Origin: Pseudarthrobacter sp. fls2-241-R2A-127
GTDB taxonomy: Bacteria; Actinomycetota; Actinomycetes; Actinomycetales; Micrococcaceae
DNA: 64,000 bases
Assembly: GCF_030209355.1 (NCBI RefSeq)
Contig: NZ_JARVSF010000041.1
Coordinates: 62,001-126,000 of the forward strand
Direction: 5' to 3'
The notes below the pieces were generated by a model. It was not told the DNA's origin, did not search any database, and saw only the letters and a program-made list of their open reading frames with translations. The translations under genes were made by a program, and so were the position numbers. Every line of letters begins with the position of its first letter. Within the stretch, counting starts at the first letter, position 1. This document shows, one piece after another, positions 35,347 to 38,345 of the stretch.

Positions 35347-35640
35347 CTACGCGGCGAGCCCGGCGAGCATGCCGGTGACCGGTGACCATTCAGTGATGCG
35401 GGTTCCGGCGATGACGCCGGCCGCGGCGAACGGGTCCTGCTTGAGGATCGAGTTCAGGGCTGCTTCGTCCGCGGCCGTGAAGATCAGGAGGGCACCGGCG
35501 CCGTCGCCGTAGGGGCCGCTGGCCACGATGACGCCGTCCTGGGCCAGTCCGCCTGTCCATTCGCGGTGCGCGGGCCGGACCTCGTTGCGGGTTTCGGTGG
35601 ATTCGGCGGCGTAAACGTACTCAACGGCAAAAACTGTCAT
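35347..35640 (-). CDS. YciI family protein
   Basis: A 97-residue alpha-beta protein with the YciI fold: [36 protein letters not shown] and [17 protein letters not shown]. The conserved HxxWxxxL and DPF motifs are present. Relatives are suggested to be small dehydrochlorinase-like or accessory enzymes; the role is unknown. A TAGGGT box (35652-35647) lies 6 nt before the ATG, so the message may be leaderless. Confidence 0.88.
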
Positions 35641-35702: not shown

Positions 35703-36185
35703 TTACTGCAGGAAGAGGACCTTGAAGGCAGCGGCGGTTCCGGCGGCCCAGAGCATGGAGGTGAGGGTTCCGATGATGAAGCGCTCTGCCGCCACAGGGG
35801 TTTCTTTGAGTTCGGCGAACCTGCCGAGGCCCTTGATGGCAACGATGTAGGCGATCGCCACCGGCTGGCCGGCCAGGATGGCAAGGCACACACCGAGCCG
35901 TTCCAGCACGCCGATAATTGCACCACCGCGCAGGATGCGCTGGGCGGGTGCGGACGCTGCACCGTCAGCACCCTCCGACGCCGGCGGCCCGGGTTGAGCC
36001 GTCAGCTCACCGTCCACGGTGACGTCGGCAGAGGGGTCTTGGGCAGCGGCGCCGGCTTCGCTTGCCGCGGTGGCGGCATCGGCTTTGTCGTCAATGGTCC
36101 TGGCGAGTTTGAACACCAAGGCCGTGACCGGCCACCCCACAAAGCCTGCCACCACCAAGGCCACGGCCACCCAGACTGCGGTCAC
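35703..36185 (-). CDS. Membrane partner of the SatD-like protein
   Basis: A 160-residue protein with one N-terminal helix (MTAVWVAVALVVAGFVGWPV), an Ala/Asp-rich cytosolic linker (residues 35-80) and two C-terminal hydrophobic segments (GVLERLGVCLAILAGQPVAIAYIVAIKG and FIIGTLTSMLWAAGTAAAF). The C-terminal GRFAELKE followed by A-AERFIIGTL resembles membrane proteins often paired with SatD. No enzyme motif is visible. Its ATG overlaps the SatD-like stop by 4 nt, so the pair is one unit. Confidence 0.75.
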   Translation of the reverse strand: MTAVWVAVALVVAGFVGWPVTALVFKLARTIDDKADAATAASEAGAAAQDPSADVTVDGELTAQPGPPASEGADGAASAPAQRILRGGAIIGVLERLGVCLAILAGQPVAIAYIVAIKGLGRFAELKETPVAAERFIIGTLTSMLWAAGTAAAFKVLFLQ

Positions 36186-36919
36186 TTGTCTCCTCCATCG
36201 CCGGCTCCGGCACCTTCCCCGTCCGGGACCAGCTGCACCCGGGCGAGATCAAGCAGCAAGGATGCTGCAGGCCGTGCCGCCCATTCTTCCTGCCAGCCGG
36301 AGCGAAGGACGGTACGGCTCACGGACTGCTCCGTAATTCCGAGTTCCTTAGCCACCTGCTTCTGGCTGCCATGCCGGGCCGGACCAGGCCGGCTTGCCCC
36401 GTGCGGCGCGGCATCCAGGTGCCGCAGGGCGTCAACCACGCGCCACTGGGCTTCCGTCCGCTCCTGGACCAGACGGCCCAGCAGCCTGAGCACGGCTTCC
36501 GCCTTGGCGCATGTCCGCTCCCCTTCCCCGGCCTGGGCACTCCCGCCTGCCTCCCCTGCCATAATGCCGGCCACCACTGACAAGGGCACCTGGGAAGCAG
36601 CGGCCTTCGCCCTCTCAACCGCCTTGCGGGCGGCCACAAACGCGGTTCCGGTCCCTTCCCGCGGGCTGGCAGCTCCCGGCAGCGCCACGGTTCCGACGCC
36701 GATGCCGACGTACCAGTACCCCTCGCGCAGCGCGTACAGGGCAATGTCCACCACGGCATCAGCGTCCCGCACCACCCCCTGGACTTCGTCGCCAACCGAC
36801 CGCTCGAAGACCGGCCCGCCGGGTCCCGCAGGGTGGAGGCGCACGATCTGCTCAATGAACCCCGGGACCCGGTCAAGGTCACCGGTGCTGCCGCGCTGGT
36901 CGATGGTCATCACGAACAT
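36182..36919 (-). CDS. SatD-like protein with C-terminal helix-turn-helix
   Basis: A 245-residue protein. The N-terminus (MFVMTIDQRGSTG) and VGDEVQGVV match the SatD family (PF16264), named from an acid-tolerance locus of Streptococcus mutans and of unknown function. The C-terminal part has a clear helix-turn-helix, SQKQVAKELGITEQSVSRTV, so it is probably a DNA-binding regulator. It is the first gene of a two-gene unit with a membrane partner. Upstream lies an AT-rich block of 28-bp repeats made of CTGATT and AATCAG half sites, the obvious candidate for its own binding sites. Confidence 0.82.
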   Translation of the reverse strand: MFVMTIDQRGSTGDLDRVPGFIEQIVRLHPAGPGGPVFERSVGDEVQGVVRDADAVVDIALYALREGYWYVGIGVGTVALPGAASPREGTGTAFVAARKAVERAKAAASQVPLSVVAGIMAGEAGGSAQAGEGERTCAKAEAVLRLLGRLVQERTEAQWRVVDALRHLDAAPHGASRPGPARHGSQKQVAKELGITEQSVSRTVLRSGWQEEWAARPAASLLLDLARVQLVPDGEGAGAGDGGDK

Positions 36920-36936
36920 AGCTCAACCATAGCTAG

Positions 36937-36998
36937 CTGATTCACAATAATCAATCAAATCTGACTGATTTATTTAAATCAGCCTAAATCGGCTGATT
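36937..36998. promoter_or_regulatory. Phased operator-like array upstream of the SatD-like gene (two 28-bp repeats plus a third half unit)
   Basis: Half sites alternate in orientation with regular spacing: CTGATT at 36937, AATCAA at 36949, CTGATT at 36965, AATCAG at 36977, CTGATT at 36993. Step sizes are 12, 16, 12, 16, so the unit is 28 bp. Units 1 and 2 start at 36937 and 36965. Perfect palindromes include CTGATTTATTTAAATCAG (36965-36982) and AATCAGCC with GGCTGATT (36977-36984 and 36991-36998). The block is AT-rich in a GC-rich genome. It lies directly before the start at 36919. Confidence 0.75.
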
Positions 36999-37016
36999 GT
37001 TAGAAGAGGCTGGTTG

Positions 37017-38345
37017 CTAGAAGAGATTGACGGGTTTGACGATGTCGGCGTAGATCAACAGGGCACTCATGCCCATCAACAAAGCGGCCACGACGTACGT
37101 CACGGGCAGCAGTTTGGCGATGTCGAACGCTCCCGGGTCCGGGCGTCCGCGCAGCCTGGCTACGGTGCGGCGCGCCCCTTCGTACAGGGCTCCGGCCACG
37201 TGGCCGCCGTCGAGAGGCAGCAGTGGGATGAGGTTGAACACCGCCAACGCGAAGTTCAGGCCCGCCAGCAGGCCCACAAGGGTGGCAAGCCGGGACTGCA
37301 GCGGCACCGCTTCCATGGCGGCGACTTCGCCGGCCACCCGGCCCACGCCCACCACGCTGATGGGGCCGTTCGGGTCCCTCGGTTCTTCGCTGAAGGCGGC
37401 CTTGGCCACGCCCACCACACGGGCGGGCAGGTTGAACACAACGCCGGCCACCTGCCGGATGTTTTCTCCCGCCATGGGCAGGACGGTCGACGCCGGCTGG
37501 GGCACCAACGCCGTTTGCGCGCCGATGCCCAGGAACCCGACGTCCTGGTACTGGAGGGTGCCGGCAGCGTCGGTGGCCTGCCGCCCGTCGGCTCCCATCA
37601 CCGGCCTGGACGAGAGTACCGGCGTGACCGTGGTGGACACCGGGCTGCCGTCCCGCTGCACAGTGATGGCTACTTCCTTGCCGGCAGAGGCGCGGATCCA
37701 TTCCGTCAGCTGGTCCCAGCTGGTGACCGACTTGCCGTCGAAGGAGGTGATGGTGTCATTGGGTTTCAGTCCCGCGGCTGCGGCCGGTGTCAGCTGGCAG
37801 GCGGCAGAGTCGGGATCGACGGTTTGCCCGGCAGCCACCTGGCATTTGGAGACGTCGGAGATGGTGGTGGTGGCGGTGGCAACGCCAAATCCCATCATCA
37901 GCACGGCTGTGAGCAGTACCCCCAGGATGATGTTCATGGCCGGCCCGCCCAGCATCACCACCACTTTCTTCCATACCGGGAGCCGGTAGAAGACGCGGTT
38001 GTGGTCGTCGGGCCCTACCTCTTCGTGGGCCATGGACCGGGCTTCCGTGGCCAGCGTCTGGAACATGCCGGTGCTGGAGGGCCGCACCGAGCCGTCCTCC
38101 TTGTTAGGCGGATACATGCCGATCATTGACACGTAGCCGCCCAGCGGAACTGCTTTCACGCCGTACTCGGTTTCACCCTTGCGGCGTGACCAGAGCGTGG
38201 GCCCGAAGCCGATCATGTACTTGGTGACACGCACTTTGAAGAGCTTGGCCGGTACCAAGTGGCCCACCTCGTGGAGGGCGATGGACACGGCAATGCCGAC
38301 GGCCACGAAGACGACGCCGAGGATGAAAAGTAGGACAGGGGTCAT
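37017..38345 (-). CDS. RseP-like site-2 protease (M50 family)
   Basis: A 442-residue intramembrane zinc protease. Active-site motif HEVGH at 25-29 in the first helix, then FKVRVTKYMIGFGPTLWSRRKGETEYG and PLGGYVSMIGM, a PDZ region with LKPNDTITSFDGKSV, and the second catalytic motif NLIPLLPLDGGHV near residue 376. Family members cleave anti-sigma factors and similar membrane substrates. Place after dxr is conserved in actinobacteria. I leave the symbol open, since rip1 and rseP are both in use. Confidence 0.94.
   Translation of the reverse strand: MTPVLLFILGVVFVAVGIAVSIALHEVGHLVPAKLFKVRVTKYMIGFGPTLWSRRKGETEYGVKAVPLGGYVSMIGMYPPNKEDGSVRPSSTGMFQTLATEARSMAHEEVGPDDHNRVFYRLPVWKKVVVMLGGPAMNIILGVLLTAVLMMGFGVATATTTISDVSKCQVAAGQTVDPDSAACQLTPAAAAGLKPNDTITSFDGKSVTSWDQLTEWIRASAGKEVAITVQRDGSPVSTTVTPVLSSRPVMGADGRQATDAAGTLQYQDVGFLGIGAQTALVPQPASTVLPMAGENIRQVAGVVFNLPARVVGVAKAAFSEEPRDPNGPISVVGVGRVAGEVAAMEAVPLQSRLATLVGLLAGLNFALAVFNLIPLLPLDGGHVAGALYEGARRTVARLRGRPDPGAFDIAKLLPVTYVVAALLMGMSALLIYADIVKPVNLF

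Follow-up and report, generated by a model that had tools for sequence, protein, structure and literature searches.

The segment 36921–36998 is very probably the autoregulatory operator lattice of a satD-like gene and of the membrane-protein gene that overlaps it, a reading that rests on the comparison of related loci. The window in which it lies is the whole 64,000-nucleotide stretch analysed here, taken from contig NZ_JARVSF010000041.1 of Pseudarthrobacter sp. fls2-241-R2A-127, and all positions given below are counted from its first letter. The initial annotation had proposed that the two genes regulate themselves through the half sites in front of them, and had named conservation of the half sites upstream of orthologues as a check on the proposal; that comparison was run, the half sites are conserved, and self-regulation appears well supported by it.

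Gene layout and geometry of the lattice

The regulator gene (36182–36919, minus strand) starts with an ATG at 36919 and encodes a protein of 245 aa, with a predicted nucleotidyl-cyclase-fold domain at approximately residues 1–120 and a C-terminal helix-turn-helix (HTH) at approximately residues 183–207. The gene of the membrane partner (35703–36185, minus strand; 160 aa) begins with a GTG and overlaps the regulator gene by 4 nt (36182–36185), as the initial annotation had it, and the same 4-nt overlap occurs in 59 of 76 loci (counted without L036, L066, L092, and L101, where the search pattern missed the partner). On the other side lies rseP (37017–38345, minus strand; Peptidase_M50 with PDZ), whose stop borders the intergenic stretch 36920–37016, which is the gap between that stop and the ATG of the regulator. 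The pair does separate rseP from ispG, as had been described, and it shares this place with a YCII-domain gene (35347–35640) that lies between the partner and ispG.

The lattice consists of six 8-bp half sites of alternating orientation, with 6 bp between neighbours and a dyad every 14 bp. On the minus strand, operator 1 is made up of the right half site GGTTGAGC (36921–36928), which overlaps the −10 region, and the left half site AATCAGCT (36935–36942); operator 2 of the right half site GATTGATT (36949–36956), which contains the inferred −35, and the left half site AATCAGTC (36963–36970); and operator 3 of the right half site GGCTGATT (36977–36984) and the left half site AATCAGCC (36991–36998). 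The five half sites initially reported (CTGATT at 36937, AATCAA at 36949, CTGATT at 36965, AATCAG at 36977, and CTGATT at 36993) are all present at steps of 12, 16, 12, and 16 nt; these uneven steps arise because 6-mers were used, and the 8-bp half sites (GGCTGATT/AATCAGCC) give an even lattice. The array had accordingly been described as a repeated 28-bp unit, of which the regular repetition stands, while the 8-bp half sites are spaced evenly at one per 14 bp and the lattice extends down to 36921, covering the −10 region. Its low G+C content against GC-rich surroundings was also correctly described (31% G+C vs 67% for the window). The sequence CTGATTTATTTAAATCAG, taken for a perfect palindrome, is none because its middle, TATTTA, is not self-complementary, though its 6-bp arms are perfect. 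A 17-nt tandem near-duplication (88%) at 36991–37024 covers the outermost half site and the rseP stop codon.

The array is real and far above chance, as well as strongly conserved. Among the pairs of spacers tried (3–11 each), the pair 6/6 scores 33 on the gene's strand and every other pair 26 or less. A template of five half sites with 40 fixed positions scores 36 here and at best 23 elsewhere in the window, and the highest score among 2000 first-order Markov sequences simulated from the local AT-rich stretch was likewise 23. Across the 4.70-Mb genome, TGATT-N6-AATCA has two matches, both within the array. The relaxed pattern ATCAGCC-N6-GGCTGAT, with up to three mismatches, gave 418 matches per strand vs 92 for the reversed control; among the matches listed in this genome search for a wider regulon, those past the array were only single sites with at least one mismatch.

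Inferred promoter and conservation of the locus

The inferred −10 hexamer of the regulator gene, TATGGT (36926–36931, minus strand), overlaps operator 1, and the inferred −35 hexamer, TTGATT (36949–36954, minus strand), stands 17 nt before it, inside operator 2. Since the ATG follows the end of the −10 hexamer by 6 nt, the transcript of the regulator is probably leaderless. The distance is 6 nt in 94 and 7 nt in 6 of 100 loci anchored on the inferred −10, and in this alignment the anchor sets the hexamer's T, A, and T and, in part, its fourth-place G (77 of 78). A scan for the sigma-70 consensus found no promoter at the lattice at its threshold, because each hexamer matches the consensus at only 4 of 6 positions. 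With the −35 inside operator 2 and the −10 overlapping operator 1, occupancy of the operators should block polymerase. The sites overlap the gene's own inferred promoter and are conserved with the gene, as would be expected of a tandem-operator autorepressor.

Relatives of the regulator, paralogues included, occur in 237 of the family's 245 genomes, and the best 80 of 121 relatives are referred to here as the named loci. When anchored on the inferred −10, 78 close orthologue loci align gaplessly across the lattice (78 of the 100 anchored loci, leaving out L023 and L029 for a mis-set start codon). In the 83 loci with a QSVSR recognition helix, mean conservation reached 1.01 bits per column in the left (L) and 1.35 in the right (R) half site of operator 3 (O3), 1.56 in O2L, 1.67 in O2R, and 1.12 in O1L, vs 0.25–0.73 in the lattice spacers and 0.14 further upstream (−100 to −82). 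At least six of eight matches to GGYTGATT were found in 49 of these 83 loci at O3L, 78 at O3R, 82 at O2L, 81 at O2R, 62 at O1L, and 34 at O1R.

Dyad symmetry (8-bp arms, 6-bp gap) was also scored without alignment against distance from the start codon, leaving out L023 and L029 (mis-set start), four paralogue loci, and L255 and L274 (no start found); the background median was approximately 2.1 of 8, and the scores locate the dyad centres rather than the division into arms and gap because even gaps of 2–12 score nearly as well. The top four dyad positions were −23, −37, −51, and −65 in 47 unique sequences of other genera and again in 20 sequences of other families of the order. Within the genus (84 sequences), the order was −65, −79, −51, and −37, then −53, −93, −39, and −23, the last being weaker. 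Among 22 loci of other families, the lattice phase ranks first of 67 in 14 and second in L262; in L263 and L275 the lattice seems to be displaced by a single base, and no lattice is visible in five (L253, L254, L255, L257, and L264). L258, which comes from the window's own family, is left out of the other-family dyad test, the phase ranking, and the half-site and partner counts.

These data also bear on the direction of control. It is unlikely that the protein binds the lattice in order to activate, or to activate and repress, with the upstream operator 3 as the activating site: the conservation of operator 3 and of further upstream half sites in the genus and the weak match of the inferred −35 and −10 to the consensus would suit such an arrangement, but operators 1 and 2 lie over the inferred −35, the −10, and the start codon, and they are often the only operators that loci of other genera retain.

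The order dxr-rseP-satD-partner-YCII-ispG is found in 77 of the 80 named loci; one further named locus lacks dxr only, within the stretch, and two stop at the contig end after the partner. In 78 of the 80 (best 80 of 121 relatives), the pair is thereby flanked by rseP and by YCII-ispG, a constancy of position that does not support the inserted module initially proposed. Both genes are absent from three of the genus's 18 genomes (G063, G137, and G152), which read rseP-YCII-ispG, and this absence reads as loss in those genomes and not as insertion in the genome of the window: the pair comes and goes as a unit, and it is no recent insertion here. Two of the named loci, L108 and L109, have approximately 1.4–1.5 kb of extra DNA between rseP and satD, unlike the other named loci looked at.

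The regulator, its partner, and their relatives

The initial description of the regulator as SatD-like holds at the level of remote homology, since a profile–profile comparison (hhalign) with Pfam-recognised SatD proteins of the phylum gave a probability of 98.8% and an E-value of 7.5e-17 over 183 columns (8 of 11 loci used). It does not extend to a Pfam assignment: hmmscan of the protein returned no row for SatD (PF16264), and a search of its own genome for the SatD family gave 0 matches, as did the control genomes of that search. By profile comparison, then, the regulator is distantly related to SatD and goes undetected by the Pfam model.

An HTH is found both by profiles and in the predicted structure (AlphaFold2; mean pLDDT 89.2, pTM 0.87). 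The first Foldseek hit for this model was 1ybt_A, the cyclase domain of Rv1900c (E 7.5e-3, probability 1.00), with nothing at E ≤ 0.001; rows 2, 4, and 5 were rejected as unrelated regulators aligned at high rmsd. VIA-align, applied to Foldseek's list, gave Z scores of 8.6–10.1 over model residues from 1, and all 50 of the 50 entries listed were class III cyclases, GGDEF domains, or GTP cyclohydrolase III. The predicted fold of the N-terminal half is that of class III nucleotidyl cyclases and GGDEF domains. At the level of profiles, the group of the window matches cyclases weakly (probability 1.8%, E 0.027), and Pfam-type and wider SatD proteins match class III cyclases with a probability of 68.5% (E 4.6e-5). 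A sequence search of the PDB found no match for the protein and two chance-level rows for its profile, and PADLOC defence models gave 0 families up to E 1 for regulator and partner.

All 63 sequences compared share D7, D44, E88, F94, and R98 (the protein set being taken without the long L038 and L062 and then thinned from 78 to 62). The regulator shares with class III cyclases (such as Rv1900c, Rv1264, and Ma1120) the predicted fold of the catalytic domain, and the weak profile alignment (probability 1.8%), like inspection by eye, places D7 and GD44, as candidate metal-binding residues, opposite the metal-binding aspartates; by eye, past the point where that alignment stops, R98 would match the transition-state arginine. 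It differs from them in being short and HTH-bearing and in that F94, again by eye, apparently replaces the asparagine usual at its place; taken together, these residues would favour nucleotide binding over ordinary cyclase activity. The asparagine is likewise missing from DUF2652, uncharacterised bacterial proteins placed in the cyclase superfamily (PMC4886424), which share the cyclase-like assignment but form another family than the regulator; the available part of that paper has 0 occurrences of SatD and does not treat fusion of an HTH to the DUF2652 cyclase domain.

The membrane partner is present in 189 of the family's 245 genomes and, by profile, follows the regulator in all 22 loci of other families. 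It is homologous to the protein beside Pfam-type SatD genes (96.7%, E 4.3e-10, 78 columns, five loci), and no partner was seen by eye beside the SatD genes L126, L127, L128, and L135. Two genomes, G001 (a weak match) and G167 (71% complete), have a match to the partner and none to the regulator. The structural model of the partner is helical (pLDDT 79.8), and Foldseek found no significant fold match for it. Membership in DUF3307 was considered for the partner; a Pfam search of partner-like proteins gave no DUF3307 or other hit, and of the phylum's 149 genomes 4 contain DUF3307, the window's own not among them.

A second SatD-like copy is encoded elsewhere in the same genome (L111; G000:C33:40192-40797), approximately 40–48% identical to the regulator. 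L111 has N in place of D7 and E in place of G43, and it lacks the operator lattice; seven fetched paralogues of the genus resemble it, with the same substitutions and no lattice. A single copy of CAACC-N6-GGTTG occurs in 4 of 15 paralogue loci, all four carriers coming from other genera, and in 0 of 7 paralogue loci of the window's genus. This single site in paralogues of other genera suggests that the operator unit is of the AATCAGCC-N6-GGCTGATT kind.

Recognition, proposed mechanism, and known systems

The letters of the half sites vary with the recognition helix. QSVSR proteins pair with GGCTGATT half sites, QAVSK proteins with GGTTGATT or GGTTGTAA, QAVSN proteins with GGTTTCAA or GGTTGCAA, and the QAVSQ/QAVSD proteins of other families with CCTTGATT or GCTTGATG; L266 and L272 are nested among the QAVSQ/QAVSD loci, yet have QNVSK and GGTTGATC/GGTTGATG. 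Across 139 loci (a table without L023, L029, 18 rows lacking the helix motif, and 10 lacking a dyad), a C stands at half-site position 2 in 9 of 10 QxVS[Q/D] proteins vs 2 of the 129 others, and at position 3 in 66 of 83 QSVSR proteins vs 4 of the 56 others. That the letters track the helix across groups is suggestive only, because independent changes on the tree (thinned to 67 rows, L001 left out) are few, amounting to 1–2 and 2–3 pairs (sign test p = 1).

The lattice might instead be occupied by a different cellular regulator, with the SatD-like protein merely as its target; no particular observation speaks for this, and we regard it as highly improbable, given that the site is unique in the genome and that its half-site letters vary in step with the recognition helix encoded by the adjacent gene, between genera and between families alike. 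A role of the inverted repeats as RNA, whether as rseP terminator or as attenuator, is extremely unlikely: one weak terminator-like hairpin (minus strand, 36984–36963; shuffles mean 0.2) is present, but there is no Rfam match up to E 1, the dyads keep an even phase relative to the start codon and extend over the −10, and a single half-site word recurs in every dyad, which is more than folding alone requires.

Under autorepression by the SatD-like protein, the C-terminal HTH of each monomer would read one 8-bp half site, and the alternating half sites at their constant 14-bp step would let dimers line up cooperatively until they cover the inferred −35 (operator 2), the −10 (operator 1), and the start codon of the leaderless mRNA. 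RNA polymerase would then be shut out and the protein's own bicistron repressed, both the binding and the repression being putative. The assembly may be released or set by a nucleotide, or by a ligand of similar kind, in the predicted cyclase-fold domain. The lining-up and self-repression are well supported by comparison; the nucleotide ligand and its control of the assembly we infer from the predicted cyclase/GGDEF fold. Omega of pSM19035 is a repressor that lines up on operator arrays of 7-bp heptads, and it has in common with the present case the regular, close half sites that cover the promoter of the repressor itself or promoters nearby. The lattice of the window differs from that system in its 14-bp step, strictly alternating orientation, different protein fold, and chromosomal bicistron.

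A much broader reading, which we consider doubtful, is that SatD-type proteins constitute an undescribed class of one-component regulators in which a nucleotide-sensing cyclase-fold domain sets the polymerisation of dimers on a 14-bp dyad lattice, giving a protein–DNA filament that silences a membrane protein harmful in excess. The 14-bp step corresponds to 120 degrees around the helix at 10.5 bp per turn. If this reading were true, loss of the regulator alone would be lethal and loss of the pair would not, which would fit both the pairwise absence seen here and the satD of S. pyogenes, reported in PMC11323703 to be essential in all transposon-tested strains and present in only 178 of 249 genomes; being essential yet accessory would suit a regulator of, or an antidote to, a harmful gene linked to it. 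In the literature searched, which lay mostly outside subscription journals, SatD appears only as a name linked to acid tolerance and in connection with this essentiality, with no report of it as a DNA-binding, nucleotide-binding, or cyclase-fold protein.

SatD proteins occur in several bacterial groups, and their function is unsettled beyond the loose link to acid tolerance. The lattice offers a first concrete handle on them, comprising a candidate binding site, a target promoter, a co-transcribed membrane partner, and a predicted cyclase-like sensing domain; with its letters changing and its phase to the start codon kept, it also makes a good natural case of co-evolution between operator and recognition helix. 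The regulator of the window shares with SatD (PF16264) the two-part layout, the GDE motif, and the C-terminal HTH, and some Pfam SatD genes likewise precede a homologous membrane protein; the difference is that the regulator lies beyond the reach of the Pfam model. Upstream of one Pfam-type SatD gene (L131), TGGTTTACA and TGTAAACCA form a perfect inverted repeat with 12 nt between its arms, which hints at a different operator geometry there.
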